This document shows, piece after piece, positions 46,877-52,909 of a stretch of 54,546 nt of DNA (the first letter of the stretch is position 1; every line of letters starts with the position of its first letter). Source of the stretch: Cyanobacteria bacterium GSL.Bin1 (GTDB lineage: Bacteria; Cyanobacteriota; Cyanobacteriia; Cyanobacteriales; Rubidibacteraceae); contig JAAANX010000062.1 of the NCBI GenBank assembly GCA_009909085.1, positions 1 to 54,546 on the forward strand, read 5' to 3'. The position numbers and the translations under genes are program-made. The notes under the pieces were generated by a model. That model was given only the letters and a program-made list of their open reading frames with translations. It did not search any database and was not told the DNA's origin.

Positions 46877-47381
46877 ACTCACTCACTGTCTACTTTCAAA
46901 GTCGATTGAATTCATTCTGAAAAGGAATTCCTCTCCGATCCAGCATTGGGTTTAGCGGCTTGTCGCCTTGATTGGTATCAGGTTCCTCACTTAAAGAGGA
47001 AACGGATTAGGTAATCATACCGGTTTACTGACAAGCGCGATCGCGCTCAAGTTCCCCGACAAATCTAATATTGATTTAAATCAATTAAATTAGCTATCTT
47101 AACACATAAAAATCGTAATTTAGCATAATTAAAGCTTAAATCTCTATCTGTGTGTAACATTTCAGCATCTCATCTTGAAAAAATATGCATTTTTACACAT
47201 AGGGATTAATCACTATTTTATCGGGAGTGCCATTCAATCTTCTGGAACACCCATAAAAAATGTTATATAGCACTTCTGGGTTGGGTGAAGGACAAAGTTA
47301 TTAGCTTTGGGAACAGAGAACACAGAATGTGCTTCATCAGAGTAAAATTTGTTATATTTATCACATAATGAGAGGTCCAAA
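46877..47381. other. Intergenic region upstream of the three-gene nuclease operon
   Basis: About 500 bp without a recognised gene. It holds a HIP1 palindrome (GCGCGATCGCGC near 47036) and a markedly AT-rich stretch from about 47060 to 47230 that contrasts with the flanks. A short open frame (46927-47012) is protein-like but has no start and no known family. The promoter of the following operon should lie in the AT-rich part. Confidence 0.4.
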
Positions 47382-48221
47382 ATGGCAACGAAAACTTTGG
47401 AAACAATAGAGCTAAAAATACTACTGAAATTGTTAGGTTTAGCGAACTACGAAGGAAGCATGACTCAAGTTAAGCCAAATCAGGGAACTTCTGCAGCGGA
47501 ACGTAATAAAATTTGCTATCGTTTGCAAGATCGCAGATGGGTCACATTAGCTGAGGAGATTAAGAAGATTAAACTTACCTCTTCTGGGAAAGCACTTCTT
47601 AGTGTAGATCCATCAGAATTACCCATTACTAAGACAGAATTAAAGATAATCAATGCTTGTGGTAAGGGAACTATTACTCCTGGTAAAACTAATGTTTCCC
47701 CTGCAAAAGAACGTGACAGCTTAATTCAGAGTTTAACTGAACGAGGATTTCTGGAAGTGGTGGAAGCTGAGCCCAAAAAAATTACTTTGACTGAAACTGG
47801 CAAAACTTTTCTATTAAACGAATTTACTCCGAGTGGTACAGCCTCGGTAAGTTTAAACCTATTGGGTAACTATATTGAGTTTTTACGGCAAAATCAAGCC
47901 AATGACAGTCAACAAAAAAACAATCAATCTTTTCAAAAGCCACAGCATCAATTAGCAGACAAAGAAGTATTAGAGTTAATCATTCAGTTAGATAAAGAAT
48001 ATAATACCAATAATTATTTACCAATTTTTTATCTTCGCGAGCAATTACAACCTCCCTTCAAGCGGGAAGAATTAGACCAAGTTCTCTATCGTTTACAAGG
48101 AAATGACAAAATTCAACTCAGTTCCCTAATTGAGACTGAAGGTTATACTCCAGAACAACTAAAAGGAGGAATTTCTCAGCGCATTGGCGGATCTTTATTT
48201 TTTATTCAAGTGACTCATTAA
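47382..48221 (+). CDS. Triple winged-helix-like protein, first gene of the nuclease-FtsK operon
   Basis: A 279-residue soluble protein that I do not recognise by name. It appears to carry three winged-helix-like units. Units 1 (about 8-78) and 2 (about 84-148) share a pattern, A-x-E-R-x-x-x-x-x-x-L-x-x-R then K-K-I-x-L-T-x-x-G-K-x-L-L, which points to internal duplication. Unit 3 (192-275) contains YLPIFYLREQLQ, YRLQGNDKIQLSSL and GGSLFFI. DNA binding or protein-protein adaptor function is inferred. ATG 47382 follows GAGAGG. The next gene starts 11 bp after its stop. Confidence 0.8.
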   Translation: MATKTLETIELKILLKLLGLANYEGSMTQVKPNQGTSAAERNKICYRLQDRRWVTLAEEIKKIKLTSSGKALLSVDPSELPITKTELKIINACGKGTITPGKTNVSPAKERDSLIQSLTERGFLEVVEAEPKKITLTETGKTFLLNEFTPSGTASVSLNLLGNYIEFLRQNQANDSQQKNNQSFQKPQHQLADKEVLELIIQLDKEYNTNNYLPIFYLREQLQPPFKREELDQVLYRLQGNDKIQLSSLIETEGYTPEQLKGGISQRIGGSLFFIQVTH

Positions 48222-48232
48222 AAGGTTCCATT

Positions 48233-50257
48233 ATGTCAGAGTTGGAAACAATTATCAAGCAATCCATTAATCCTTTTGATACAGCCAACTTTAAAAAAGG
48301 AAATTTTTGGGAAGAAGAACAACCACAAGATTTAAATGTCAATTCGATTCATAAAGAAGTCTTAGAGAGCATAGAGCAGACTTTAACACAAGTTGCAAAA
48401 GATAAAAAAAGCCGTACTATTCGCTTAGAAGGAGATAGCGGTTCTGGGAAAACGCATCTTTTAGGTCGCCTCAAAAAAACTCTGAACCGAAAAGCATTTT
48501 TTGCTCATATTATTGCTTCAATTCAAGCTGAATACGTTTTTCAATATACTCTTCGGAAAACAATTGAGAGTTTAATGTTTATTCCTGAAGGAGAAACGGA
48601 GTCACAGCTATTGTTATGGTTAAAGCGAATTATTAAACAGCAAAGGGAAGGAGTAACTCAAAGAATACTGGGTAAGAGAAAAACTTTTATTAATCAAATG
48701 AAAGCAGCTTATCCCAGTGGAATTTGGAATCCGAATTCATTTTTTAGTGTCTTATATGCACTGACTCAGCCGGATTTATATGCCTTAGCGTGTGGATGGT
48801 TAAAAGGAGATGATCTAGACGATGAAGACTTAAAAGTATTGGGTGCTAAAGTCACGATTGAAACTGAAGATGACGCAATGAGTTTGTTGGCTAACTTGAG
48901 TTATATTTCTAACTCAACGCTACCCATTGTTTTATGTTTTGATGAAATTGATATTAGTCATGAGCGTGAAGAATTATTAAAATCTATTTTGAGATTAAAT
49001 ATGATTATTCAAAGCCAGAAACTCAAAAATTTTCTGGTAATTCTGAGTGTTATTACTAATACTTGGAAAGAACATGAAAATTCTATTGCAGTTTCACTCA
49101 AAGCTCCGATTAACCAAACTCTTTCTTTAAAGCCAATTACAACAGAGCAAATTGAAGTCCTTTGGTCAGTTCATCTAAGACCATTCCATCAGCAACTCGA
49201 AAAGCAACCTGAATCGAGCATAGCACCATTAACTAAAGAAGATTTAGAATTCTATTTTCCGAGTGGCGAAACTAATCCAAGTTTTCCGAGTGGCAAAACT
49301 AATCCAAGAAATGCTCTACAGGTGGGTCATGAACTCATTCAATACTATAAAACTGGTCGAGTTGAGGCACCCGATTCAATTGCAGCCTTTAAATTACTTT
49401 GGCGTGAAGAATTAAAAAAAATAAAAGCTAACATTACTGATTTCAGTGCTTTTTCGTCTGCTGAATTAGCGAATATGTTGCAGAAAGGGATTGAAACTCT
49501 CAAGCAAACTCAAGCGAAGGTTAATATATTTAATAAAAATACAAGCTTTGGTGTCAACTCTTTTAGCTTTAAAGATCGCTCTTCTCCGGAAATCGGAATT
49601 ATTTGGAATGAAGGACAGAACTTGAGAAGTTTTGCCGCATTAATGAACCTTTGTGATGAACTATTTCGACACCAGAGATATGATGTACTGATTTTCATTC
49701 GTTATCAAGGGATGGGTCACGCAAAAAATCGAGGCTATCAACGATTCCAAAAAATCTTTCAAACTTCCCCGAATTTTCATATCATACCTGATTTAGATTC
49801 AGTTTATATCTTAGCCACTTACCACAGTCTTTATAGCTTTGCGACGAATCAAAATTTGACCGTAGGTTATGAAACGCCAGATGTTCAACGTTTACAGGAA
49901 TTAACGCGTCAGTCTGGTGTATTAAACGAGTGTCAAATTCTAGACAAGTTAGAAGTCTTGGAAGCTACTTCCTCTCCAGTTGAACCACCTCTAGTTGAAA
50001 AACCTCCAGTTGAACCATCTCCGGTTAATTCATCTAAAAATAATCAAGAAATTAAAGAATATATACTGAATCTTGTTCAAACTACTTTGTTCATAGGAAG
50101 AAAAGCCTTAACTAATCAAACATTAGCAGAATTCAATAAGGAAACGACTTTAGAAGAAATTGATCAGTCGATCCAAAGTCTCATCAAGGAACAGCAAATT
50201 AAAATTGTTAATCCTAAGGAAGAGTTAGAAGCACAAAGTATTTCAATAATTTCGTAA
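48233..50257 (+). CDS. ORC/STAND-like AAA+ ATPase, second gene of the nuclease-FtsK operon
   Basis: A 674-residue ATPase. Walker A is GDSGSGKT (67-74), Walker B ends in DE at 237-238 (VLCFDEID), and a sensor-1-like strand LVILSVITNTW follows. A lid with T-N-P-R-N-A-L at 356-362 resembles the sensor-2 arginine region of ORC/Cdc6-type ATPases. A 27 bp tandem duplication (342-359) sits in that region. The middle part (about 440-570) is of unknown fold, a Pro-rich linker lies near 580-600, and the C-terminal about 70 residues look like a winged helix. I infer a DNA-loading or switch ATPase. Confidence 0.82.
   Translation: MSELETIIKQSINPFDTANFKKGNFWEEEQPQDLNVNSIHKEVLESIEQTLTQVAKDKKSRTIRLEGDSGSGKTHLLGRLKKTLNRKAFFAHIIASIQAEYVFQYTLRKTIESLMFIPEGETESQLLLWLKRIIKQQREGVTQRILGKRKTFINQMKAAYPSGIWNPNSFFSVLYALTQPDLYALACGWLKGDDLDDEDLKVLGAKVTIETEDDAMSLLANLSYISNSTLPIVLCFDEIDISHEREELLKSILRLNMIIQSQKLKNFLVILSVITNTWKEHENSIAVSLKAPINQTLSLKPITTEQIEVLWSVHLRPFHQQLEKQPESSIAPLTKEDLEFYFPSGETNPSFPSGKTNPRNALQVGHELIQYYKTGRVEAPDSIAAFKLLWREELKKIKANITDFSAFSSAELANMLQKGIETLKQTQAKVNIFNKNTSFGVNSFSFKDRSSPEIGIIWNEGQNLRSFAALMNLCDELFRHQRYDVLIFIRYQGMGHAKNRGYQRFQKIFQTSPNFHIIPDLDSVYILATYHSLYSFATNQNLTVGYETPDVQRLQELTRQSGVLNECQILDKLEVLEATSSPVEPPLVEKPPVEPSPVNSSKNNQEIKEYILNLVQTTLFIGRKALTNQTLAEFNKETTLEEIDQSIQSLIKEQQIKIVNPKEELEAQSISIIS
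49256..49309 (+). repeat. 27 bp in-frame tandem duplication inside the ATPase gene
   Basis: Two adjacent 27 bp units encode FPSGETNPS and FPSGKTNPR. They differ at two bases. The second copy runs into the NPR lid motif. Confidence 0.9.
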
Positions 50258-50271
50258 AAACCAAAATATAA

Positions 50272-52842
50272 ATGTATGTTAATAACTTTGAAATAAGTAA
50301 GCAGATTATACAAAAACTCTCTCGATATTCAAGACTTTGGATAGATACAGAAATTGCTGATTGGAAAACGAAGCATCCTCACCTTTCCCTCATCCAAGTA
50401 TTGACTGATTCTAATGCTACTGCAAGCGATGCAGTTTATGTGTTAGATGTGTTGCAGCAACCTGAATTAATTACGCTATTTATTCAGAGATTAATGAAAG
50501 ATGAGAAAATTGAAAAGATTTTTCATAATGTTTCCTTTGATTTAAGATATTTAGGCAAAGAAAACGCTAAAAATATCACTTGTACCTATCAACTCGCTCG
50601 ACAATTTTCTAAACAGCGTTTGGGAACTTCTAATTTACAATTGAAAACTTTAGCGGTGGAACTTTGTCAGTTTTCTCAAAATGAAGTTGACTTGGAACAG
50701 CAAAGTAGCGACTGGAAAAAACGTCCTCTTAATCAGAAACAATTACGCTACGCTGCAATGGATGTGATTTATTTAGCTTATGTTCATCGCTATTTACTCA
50801 ATTTCCAGCCAAATTGTCAGAGGAATCAGAAAATGACTCAAACTAACTTTTCTAAGTTTAGTGTAACTGACGTTCGGGTTGCATTTGAATGTCCACGCTT
50901 ATTCTATTTGAGTAAACATTTTGGTGGTAAGACCCTATTTATTCCTCCCGATCAACCGAAAGCGATTGGACAACCCTTTCATAAATTTGCGTTTAAATTT
51001 ATCGAATTTGCGAAAACTGATCCGGAATTTAGAGAGATTTTTAAGCCCAAGCCACAAGAACTTGACTCAGAGGAAGTGACCCAGAAAATGCAAAAGAGAT
51101 TTTATGACCAAATCTTTTTTCCTCGCTTACAAAAAGTGGCTCAATCTAAACCAGAAAATGTCCCGGTTTTGCAACAAATTTGGCAGGGTTTAAGAGGTTT
51201 AATGCAACATTGGAGTGAATTGCTCATTCAGAATCGCTACTATGCCAATTATCATAATGTCATTAGTCAAACCTTTGTTTCACAAGAACTTGCTGTCTCC
51301 TGTGACTATCCAATTCCCAACCAGAAAACTCAGAAAATTGAAGGACAATTTGATAGCTTAATTCGCGATCTCAAAAAAAATCGCTTGTGTATGGTGGAGT
51401 ATAAAACTTATACACCCCTTGATTCTGCAGCGCAGTTAGCCCAAGTGGCATTGTATAGTTACATCTTACATCTCCATCAACAACAGCCGGTTGATAGTGC
51501 GGTTTATTGTGTTTTACCGGAATTTAAAAGTTATTTTTACAGTTGGGAAGAACTGAAAGATACCGTTCATGAATTAACTCCGTTTAAACTCCAACAGATG
51601 CGAGAGTGGTTAACTTGGAAACCCTCGCAACCTGATCCGCCACCACAAACCCATCAAAGCGAACAACTTTGTCCGATTTGTCCTCAACAAGAAACGTGTC
51701 AAACCTATTTTCTAGAACAAGATTCCAAACCACTTCAAGAAGAAAAAAGAAAGCCAGTTGATCCGCCAAAACCTAAACCAAAACCGGAAAAAACAAATGA
51801 ACCAGACGCAACACAGTTAGGACAGCAGCTAGAAGCCATTTTGCAGGCGTATGGGATTAAGGCTGACTATCAAGGCGCAACCATTGGCGCATCGTTTATT
51901 CGGATTCGCTTAAAACCTCGCCTGGGAGTAAAAGTGGTTTCTATTCTTAACCGCGCCACCGATATTCAAGTGCAAATGGGCATTGCTAGCCCTCCCTTGA
52001 TTTCTCCTCAAGCTGGATATATTAGTGTTGATTTACCGCGATCGCGCCGAGATGTTGCTGAGTTTGAAACGTATGTTCAAGCTACTCAAAATCACTCTGA
52101 GATTAAGATTGCTCTTGGTGTTGATTTAGAAGGAAATCTAATTGATGCCGACTTATCTGATCCCAATAGTTGTCATTTCCTAGTGGGTGGAACAAATGGG
52201 AGTGGAAAAAGTGAATTCCTCAAAAGTGTCGTTTTAAGTTTAATTCGCCGTTATCCAAAAGAAGTGGTCAAACTTGCTTTAGTTGATCCGAAACGGGTGA
52301 CGTTTCCTGAATTTGAAAACAGCCCTTGGTTGATGTCGCCTGTGATTAAAGAGCGCGATCGCGCGATCGGCTTCATGGAAGAATTGGTTTCGGAAATGGA
52401 GCAACGGTATCAACAACTTGAACAAGCCCAATCTTCCAACATAAAAAGCTATAACCAAACGTTGACTCAACAAGGGAAAACACCTGTTCCTCACATTGTG
52501 TGTATTTTCGATGAATACGCTGATTTTATGGTGGAAAAAGAAGATCGCGAAGCCCTCGAATATAGTATTAAACGCTTGGGAGCAATGGCAAGAGCGGCTG
52601 GTATCCATTTGATTATTTCCACCCAACGCCCCGAAGCAAAAATTGTAACCCCAATTATTCGTGCTAATCTTACTGGAAGAGTCGCATTGAAAACCAGCAC
52701 AGAAGCTGACTCCAAAATTATTCTTGGCGGAAGTCAAACCCAAGCCGCCCATTTATTAGGAAAAGGGGATTTGCTTTACCTCAATAGTGGACAATTAATC
52801 CGCTTACAAAGTTTACTGGTCACTCAGAAACATTTTTCCTAA
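50272..52842 (+). CDS. DEDDy exonuclease - Cas4/AddB-like Fe-S nuclease - FtsK/HerA motor fusion
   Basis: An 856-residue three-module protein. Residues 1-180: RNase D-type 3'-5' exonuclease with D25 and E27 (WIDTE), D90 (FHNVSFD), Y160 and D164 (YAAMD), a complete DEDDy set. Residues 198-480: RecB/Cas4-type PD-(D/E)XK nuclease with H237, D361, E376-x-K378 and Q391-x3-Y395. It has iron-sulfur ligands C207 and C467-x2-C470-x5-C476. A Pro/Lys linker (485-510) leads to an FtsK/SpoIIIE motor with Walker A GGTNGSGKS (639-647) and Walker B DE at 747-748. There are no membrane helices and no FtsK gamma domain. It begins 14 bp after the ATPase gene. Confidence 0.88.
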   Translation: MYVNNFEISKQIIQKLSRYSRLWIDTEIADWKTKHPHLSLIQVLTDSNATASDAVYVLDVLQQPELITLFIQRLMKDEKIEKIFHNVSFDLRYLGKENAKNITCTYQLARQFSKQRLGTSNLQLKTLAVELCQFSQNEVDLEQQSSDWKKRPLNQKQLRYAAMDVIYLAYVHRYLLNFQPNCQRNQKMTQTNFSKFSVTDVRVAFECPRLFYLSKHFGGKTLFIPPDQPKAIGQPFHKFAFKFIEFAKTDPEFREIFKPKPQELDSEEVTQKMQKRFYDQIFFPRLQKVAQSKPENVPVLQQIWQGLRGLMQHWSELLIQNRYYANYHNVISQTFVSQELAVSCDYPIPNQKTQKIEGQFDSLIRDLKKNRLCMVEYKTYTPLDSAAQLAQVALYSYILHLHQQQPVDSAVYCVLPEFKSYFYSWEELKDTVHELTPFKLQQMREWLTWKPSQPDPPPQTHQSEQLCPICPQQETCQTYFLEQDSKPLQEEKRKPVDPPKPKPKPEKTNEPDATQLGQQLEAILQAYGIKADYQGATIGASFIRIRLKPRLGVKVVSILNRATDIQVQMGIASPPLISPQAGYISVDLPRSRRDVAEFETYVQATQNHSEIKIALGVDLEGNLIDADLSDPNSCHFLVGGTNGSGKSEFLKSVVLSLIRRYPKEVVKLALVDPKRVTFPEFENSPWLMSPVIKERDRAIGFMEELVSEMEQRYQQLEQAQSSNIKSYNQTLTQQGKTPVPHIVCIFDEYADFMVEKEDREALEYSIKRLGAMARAAGIHLIISTQRPEAKIVTPIIRANLTGRVALKTSTEADSKIILGGSQTQAAHLLGKGDLLYLNSGQLIRLQSLLVTQKHFS

Positions 52843-52909
52843 ACATTGAACCTTTTTCTGATCTCGCTTGTCTAAACGGGTGAATCCAATTGGTTTGGGG
52901 AGACAGAAT

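Follow-up and report, generated by a model that had tools for sequence, protein, structure and literature searches.

Mobile gene neighbourhoods predicted to act as 'HerA/FtsK capture' defence systems have been described by Rakesh, Aravind and Krishnan (2024; PMC10853773). In the passages of that paper devoted to them, the class combines an Orc/Cdc6 ATPase, in which an inactive restriction endonuclease (REase) domain is inserted before the C-terminal winged helix, with an active REase (of two families) and a HerA/FtsK motor; one set of motors carries FtsK-alpha, a subset of neighbourhoods includes a protein with two to four winged helices that is related to DndG/SspB, and in other neighbourhoods a 3'-5' exonuclease is fused to the motor. 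Second Orc/Cdc6 copies with a disrupted Walker B motif also occur. Such systems were proposed there to intercept selfish DNA, and a 2026 paper on BREX, whose authors cite the 2024 work as their own, repeats the Orc/Cdc6 capture prediction in its corresponding passages (PMC12839542). As far as these passages go, both the Orc/Cdc6 branch of the class and its counter-invader function are predictions. Here, we examine a three-gene operon in a 54,546-nucleotide stretch of DNA from Cyanobacteria bacterium GSL.Bin1 (contig JAAANX010000062.1; this whole stretch is called the window below), and we consider it probable that the operon is an accessory counter-invader module of the Orc/Cdc6-linked HerA/FtsK capture class.

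The operon has in common with this class an Orc/Cdc6 AAA+ ATPase (gene 2, for which Foldseek finds Cdc6/Orc1 and ORC subunits), a modelled C-terminal winged helix on that ATPase (residues 600-672), and an FtsK motor with FtsK-alpha in the same operon (gene 3). Also shared are a REase-fold nuclease predicted to be active from its sequence (PDDEXK_1 8.6e-14, with H, D and K kept in 57/57 rows), a multi-winged-helix partner (gene 1, modelled with three winged helices), and a 3'-5' exonuclease fused to the motor; here, all of these parts stand together in a single three-gene cyanobacterial operon. The operon is thus a predicted member of a class known from prediction and not categorically new, and its description in the initial annotation as a candidate undescribed system is not supported as regards its kind, since the same domain inventory was predicted as HerA/FtsK capture in the 2024 passages. 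No word beginning 'cyanobacteri' occurs in the main text of PMC10853773 (its supplement aside), a literature search combining the 2024 title phrase with FtsK returned only that paper and PMC12839542, and no paper was found that links FtsK with RNase D, RecB and cyanobacteria. The features of the operon are as follows.

47382..48221, + strand: gene 1, triple winged-helix protein of 279 residues (open reading frame (ORF), profile search, AlphaFold model; ORF start TTG at 47349)
47403..47603, + strand: gene 1, modelled winged helix 1, residues 8-74 (secondary structure of AlphaFold model)
47631..47822, + strand: gene 1, modelled winged helix 2, residues 84-147 (AlphaFold model; winged-helix matches below cut-off)
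47958..48212, + strand: gene 1, modelled winged helix 3, residues 193-277 (AlphaFold model; weak match to Protein Data Bank (PDB) entry 1sfu)
48233..50257, + strand: gene 2, ORC/Cdc6-type AAA+ ATPase of 674 residues (ORF, AlphaFold model, Foldseek)
48362..48997, + strand: gene 2, AAA+ core, residues 44-255, with Walker A GDSGSGKT and Walker B CFDEID (Pfam, alignment)
49457..49852, + strand: gene 2, modelled alpha/beta domain, residues 409-540, between AAA+ lid and C-terminal winged helix (AlphaFold model)
50030..50248, + strand: gene 2, modelled C-terminal winged helix, residues 600-672 (secondary structure of model)
50272..52842, + strand: gene 3, dual-nuclease FtsK motor of 856 residues (ORF, Pfam, structure-profile search, alignment)
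50290..50799, + strand: gene 3, DEDDy 3'-5' exonuclease domain, residues 7-176 (PF01612, DNA_pol_A_exo1, 1.9e-26; D25, E27, D90, Y160, D164)
50857..51702, + strand: gene 3, Cas4-like PD-(D/E)XK nuclease with four Cys, residues 196-477 (PF12705, PDDEXK_1, 8.6e-14; H237, D361, E376, K378; C207, C467, C470, C476)
51778..52038, + strand: gene 3, FtsK alpha domain, residues 503-589 (PF17854, FtsK_alpha, 9.1e-9)
52081..52632, + strand: gene 3, FtsK/SpoIIIE motor core, residues 604-787 (PF01580, FtsK_SpoIIIE, 3.4e-37)

The three ORFs (47349-48221, 48233-50257 and 50272-52842) are separated by gaps of 11 and 14 bp on the + strand, in agreement with the layout first claimed for them, and the TTG start of the first is followed by an in-frame ATG at 47382. 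The best-defined product is that of gene 3, in which all four domains exceed the Pfam curated cut-offs, bearing out the earlier assignment of two nucleases on an FtsK-type motor; a profile of the protein searched against solved structures matched FtsK over the motor (3.4e-65), with NrnC and RRP6 among the exonuclease matches. We aligned the window with 56 of the 79 long relatives, picked by hand so as to cover their spread, which gave 57 rows. H237, D361, K378, the four Cys and the Walker A and B residues of the motor (K646, D747, E748) are invariant in 57/57, and position 376 is Glu in 53 of the 57 and Asp in four, a pattern suggestive of strong constraint on the nuclease residues. All five DEDDy residues are present in 50/57; of the other seven, six are without part or all of the domain and one is minus two of the residues. 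Within gene 3, it is the DEDDy domain that can be dispensed with, the motor and the PD-(D/E)XK nuclease staying.

Gene 2 is less easily placed by sequence, as its AAA matches in Pfam all fall below cut-off (AAA_16 2.7e-5), and sequence-based searches of solved structures gave nothing useful for it or for gene 1. Its AlphaFold model (predicted local distance difference test score, pLDDT, 85) has as best Foldseek matches Cdc6p (1fnn, 2.6e-5), Cdc6/Orc1 (2qby) and ORC subunits, with BrxC further down the list, and on this model basis gene 2 is assigned to the ORC/Cdc6-type AAA+ ATPases, as first proposed. Template modelling scores are low (at most 0.46 among the 50 matches listed), so that the clade is supported and not the structural detail. 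In an alignment of 54 rows (the window and 53 of 76 relatives), the residue after the Walker B Asp is Gln in 36 and Asn in 17, together 53/54; it is Glu in the window and its genus relatives (L126-L128) and Gln in L129, from another genus. An acid lies three residues beyond the Walker B position in 54/54 rows, and NACHT-type ATPases also have an acid three residues on in Walker B. To take the amide as proof of a dead ATPase would therefore be too strong, given this retained acid and the Glu of the window and its three genus relatives. A direct tandem of two gene 2 copies combines a Gln-type first copy with an Asn-type second copy in 8/8 loci examined (L066, L078, L108, L175, L176, L177, L188, L189), which amount to about five lineages by our count; gene 1 precedes the pair in six of them, and the L066 and L078 loci begin at the pair. 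At L109, two copies separated by gene 1 both have Gln. The tandem pattern suggests, at the level of sequence, two kinds of subunit within one assembly.

For gene 1, no Pfam family was found above cut-off, and the model had 0 matches among solved structures at E 0.001. The multi-winged-helix identity claimed for it nonetheless held up in the AlphaFold model (pLDDT 90), whose secondary structure comprises three winged-helix units; in the 279-residue form, sub-cutoff winged-helix matches fall at residues 108-144 (MksE) and 113-144 (DUF6293_C), and the 1sfu winged helix matches weakly at profile positions 194-250 (E 0.024).

Other described systems come near the operon. With SspFGH/DndFGH it shares the three-gene layout, the presence of an ATPase and a protein whose C-terminal part is an FtsK motor; over residues 509-836, gene 3 matches the PADLOC model of SspH (PDLC02806) at E 4.3e-60, the closest of all PADLOC models. 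Gene 3 nevertheless has other nuclease domains, and genes 1 and 2 are unlike SspF and SspG: neither had a PADLOC match to SspF, SspG, DndF or DndG at E 1, thin-profile hhalign comparisons with SspF and SspG (two-sequence profiles) gave probabilities of 4.2% (Walker A only) and 0.1%, and the PADLOC SspF model matches 4/54 gene 2 rows, at best with 3.2e-5. The parallel that had been drawn with DndFGH-type motor-nuclease modules thus holds for the FtsK part and not for genes 1 and 2, and we reject membership in SspFGH (PMC8092258), as it fails on these two genes and leaves the motor alone in common. SspH-type loci themselves occur in a few cyanobacteria by PADLOC (SspF, SspG and SspH at L114, SspF and SspG at L115, SspG at L113, SspB at L116). 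BREX-Related Capture systems, as presented in the corresponding passages of PMC12839542, resemble the operon in having an ORC/Cdc6 ATPase, a triple winged-helix component and a HerA/FtsK motor; they differ from it in that the three-gene operon is without PglZ, STAND, GNAT and TGT genes (flanks not searched one by one). Models of HerA match gene 3 weakly (best 1.3e-8). HerA-NurA and HerA-SIR2/DUF4297 follow the same principle of motor plus nuclease, with the difference that here motor and nuclease share one polypeptide and the nuclease folds are others.

When species genomes of bacteria and archaea were scanned by a motif-led search, 141 relatives of gene 3 came up, and the titles of the best 80, which were kept, all name cyanobacteria. 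Together with one plasmid copy and the window, these make up 82 loci, in 68 of which genes 1, 2 and 3 follow in a row, so that the trio is conserved as one operon, as had been supposed. Of the other 14, we judged eight to be truncated where the contig stops (L050, L056, L059, L067, L069, L070, L103, L107) and six to be split, interrupted or short of a member (L046, L052, L095, L104, L109, L110). In a separate sample of 386 cyanobacterial genomes, gene 3 (nuclease plus motor) is present in 38, all in the window's order, and gene 2 accompanies it in 38/38; nine genomes have gene 2 without gene 3 (G072, G109, G118, G119, G199, G231, G306, G320, and G385 with a fragment), and 339/386 have neither (Fisher 2.4e-44 for association, kinship uncorrected; eight genomes with weak partial matches of at most 62 bits were set aside). 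The two genome collections overlap, one DndC match in the genome of L056 having the same coordinates as that of G207. Three genomes (G101, G051 and G233) carry gene 3 at a great distance from the gene 1-2 pair, and the presence of the genes together although unlinked supports a working link beyond operon inheritance.

The operon is accessory, as its first reading held: within the window's genus it occupies other sites or is absent, an interval without it is preserved, and decayed copies exist. Gene 3 occurs in 38/105 sampled genomes of the order. Within the genus, the operon was not found in G326, and in G054 and G121 it stands beside genes without match to the window; in G368 it lies elsewhere, sharing with the window only the sigma-factor side. 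The corresponding interval in the sister genome G121 has dnaA, a shortened glycosyltransferase gene and a sigma gene, the last two 395 bp apart with no operon between them, and similarity to the window resumes at 52845, three bases beyond the end of the gene 3 stop codon. In G385 the decayed operon persists as remnants, and in G024 and G042 only gene 3 tails are left. In the window, the direct neighbours are a glycosyltransferase and a sigma factor, and the operon (G+C 0.348-0.392, against 0.432 for the window) is preceded by one further feature.

46883..47381, no strand: AT-rich intergenic stretch upstream of gene 1 (G+C 0.359)

The AT-richness, which had been cited in favour of an accessory insertion, is real but mild, as 6.7% of the window's 499-bp windows have an equally low G+C. 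As to whether the operon was recently inserted beside dnaA, gain and loss from an old site are equally possible, because G368 keeps the operon and the sigma gene elsewhere and because a GT4 glycosyltransferase flanks the operon in Nostocales too; the latter is related to that of the window (45-47% identity in the seven best), and 30/82 loci, the window included, share this GT4 cluster. At one locus, in genome G305 (L117:2900-10010), an insert of about 7 kb that codes for two tyrosine recombinases breaks up the motor part of gene 3; it encodes Phage_integrase proteins of 362 and 699 residues and a 405-residue protein without Pfam match, and we take the insert to resemble recombinase-trio elements.

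From the domains, the conservation of active sites and operon, the co-occurrence of genes 1-2 and gene 3 even where unlinked, and the accessory distribution, we infer complex formation, a target, DNA degradation and defence, which might fit together as follows. The diverging triple winged-helix protein of gene 1 and the ORC-like ATPase of gene 2, with its own winged helix, would together form an ATP-controlled platform on DNA, probably a complete or partial ring, that recognises some feature of incoming or replicating foreign DNA and loads the FtsK hexamer of gene 3. This motor would pump duplex DNA, which the Cas4-like PD-(D/E)XK nuclease would cut and the DEDDy exonuclease would trim at its ends. 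The compact, widely kept three-gene form, which has clean active sites, has been lost naturally in some genomes and also occurs in unlinked arrangements and with ATPase variants in tandem, offers a tractable test case, and makes approachable the question of whether an ORC-like platform can pass invading DNA to a shredding pump.

Several results weigh against a counter-invader module of this class. On the side of class membership, the alpha/beta domain at residues 409-540 of gene 2 lies at the position of the class's inactive REase and is not confirmed as a REase fold, and no similarity was seen between gene 1 and the two SspG sequences and one SspB sequence compared with it. On the side of defence, we compared PADLOC matches of ORFs flanking 20 target loci (150 of 172 scanned; two of the loci have genes 1-2 only) with those of randomly chosen regions in the 20 genomes concerned (148 of 207), and saw no visible excess of known defence families in the flanks. 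At 1e-10, 58 families were matched in the flanks and 128 in the random regions, the 25 commonest of each being listed, from which the proteins with a match are not exactly countable; among the matches listed, the top flank families are PD-T4-6, which we take to be a kinase, and mad3, and the control has mad3, DrmC, Type I specificity and DndA. Nearness to defence genes, which had been proposed as a check, was thus not visibly enriched. The mobility of the operon is modest, as plasmid, phage and viral matches are few: one operon copy is carried by a conjugative plasmid of Pseudanabaena, gene 2 was matched in 1 of 72,556 plasmid records, scans of viral contigs that required a short conserved motif found no relative, and a search of 50,697 phage records, made with gene 3 only, matched its FtsK part alone, in 196 records, none over 80% of gene 3. 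Finally, in Nostocales the operon often lies near the GT4 glycosyltransferase and a gene for a 294-residue ParA, a recurring chromosomal neighbourhood, and a gene 3 tree built by a quick method is near taxonomy there (2 label changes for 30 rows) and looks largely vertical. Fixed synteny, by which the initial annotation would have recognised housekeeping genes, is therefore partly seen in Nostocales and not in the window's own genus.

This Nostocales pattern raises the possibility of a chromosome-maintenance machine for segregation, dimer resolution or copy control in polyploid cyanobacteria. The ORC-like protein, the winged helices and the FtsK motor would suit such a role, as would the recurring ParA and the ParA/ParB pairs that adjoin some operons, and a search of the window's genome with gene 3 at E 0.001 brought up no further FtsK-type match. 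On the other hand, we would not expect two nucleases on a segregation motor, and a housekeeping function is made very unlikely by the restriction of gene 3 to part of the order, with pseudogene remnants in living lineages. We also regard it as quite unlikely that the genes belong to a mobile element itself, serving the upkeep or transfer of a plasmid or integrated element or the exclusion of rivals in place of host defence. The several sites within one genus, the conjugative plasmid copy and the ParA/ParB neighbours would fit this, against which stand the scarcity on plasmid records, the lack of any relative in the viral-contig scans and, for the window copy, the glycosyltransferase and sigma factor directly beside it (no search was made for element ends, repeats or integrases).

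Another explanation starts from the host range: the operon occurs in Cyanobacteria, in which, according to the corresponding passages of PMC8569181, phosphorothioation genes are without a known restriction partner, dndFGH being reported absent and the dnd modification genes enriched in Nostocales. Genes 1-3 could then be the partner of these solitary genes, cutting DNA that lacks the modification; the proximity of the FtsK part to SspH would agree with this, and DndC is above cut-off in 36/38 gene-3 genomes, that of the window included (above the curated cut-off at G000:C53:32518-33852, on another contig than the operon). The background of DndC in the same order is high, however, at 93/105 genomes and 57/67 of those without gene 3 (Fisher p 0.20), and further carriers lack it: in the other collection it is above cut-off in 8/16 gene-3 genomes, the other eight being six metagenome bins and two not so marked (L059 and L111), and the one-contig genome G051 has gene 3 and genes 1-2 with no DndC. 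High background and further genomes without DndC weaken this explanation to the point where we hold it highly improbable. The insignificant association and the carriers without DndC (2/38 and 8/16, some of them incomplete genomes; sspBCD not searched for) are to be added to the points against the counter-invader module as well. TIGR03238 (dnd_assoc_3) was absent from 148 genomes of the order, a search in which the control was silent too and which is therefore of little weight.

A broader function for genes 1-2 would be that of a general DNA-bound ATP switch, a heteromeric ORC-like assembly whose Gln- and Asn-type Walker B subunits hold ATP rather than turn it over fast, and which licenses effectors that can be exchanged for one another: the FtsK-nuclease, a kinase-bearing motor whose nuclease is encoded separately, and perhaps a pair of ParA (with a restriction-fold N terminus) and ParB. 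We think this unlikely, its odds being lowered because degenerate ATPase motifs are found in two of three lone copies of gene 2 that adjoin ParA/ParB. Those lone copies face the pair at L180, L181 and L182. The pair may be another system or an exchanged effector; as a swapped effector we rejected it, since the Walker A glycine is altered in L182 and the Walker B aspartate in L180, which speaks for decay.

Loci that depart from the standard operon were considered in addition to the counter-invader module in its usual form. At L118:3925-11873, the gene 3 relative (1121 residues) has a protein kinase domain between the exonuclease and the PD-(D/E)XK domain, and a DUF29 gene adjoins. The fused PD-(D/E)XK domain is minus H, D and K, and a separate PD-(D/E)XK gene upstream of gene 1 keeps them, with Asp for Glu; the simplest reading of these sequences is that one working copy of the nuclease is needed. 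Two candidates for working alternatives were discarded. In the nuclease-only variant L123 (genes 1-2 plus PD-(D/E)XK), H, D, E and K are all gone and the nuclease looks inactivated. The DEDDy-only ORFs of L179 and L192 keep their residues but adjoin a ParA/ParB pair that occupies the place expected for the remainder of gene 3, so that decay seems as likely as design. A ParA-type ATPase of about 455-493 residues, similar from end to end among ten loci, stands there with a neighbouring ParB_N protein beside or in place of gene 3, and in L182 the N terminus of the ATPase has a weak resemblance to the HSDR_N restriction fold.

L182:6746-8859, ParA-type ATPase locus
L180:6288-8398, ParA-type ATPase locus
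L181:11356-13523, ParA-type ATPase locus
L179:5978-7920, ParA-type ATPase locus
L192:5788-7898, ParA-type ATPase locus
L120:5979-8095, ParA-type ATPase locus
L119:6028-8184, ParA-type ATPase locus
L082:13536-15703, ParA-type ATPase locus
L066:4403-6675, ParA-type ATPase locus
L078:4380-6643, ParA-type ATPase locus

Two further arrangements were met with. Another FtsK protein, with motor-only identity of about 35-40% to gene 3, occurs at L122:7137-10600, in cyanobacterial plasmid matches H2-H5, H7-H13, H15 and H16, and in genome G091; at L122 it is preceded by two genes, of 266 and 213 residues, without PADLOC match. At L183:8570-12547 and L184:5473-9431, a distant gene 1-gene 2 pair with no gene 3 adjoining follows a gene of 355 residues, which at L183 is a mechanosensitive channel by Pfam.

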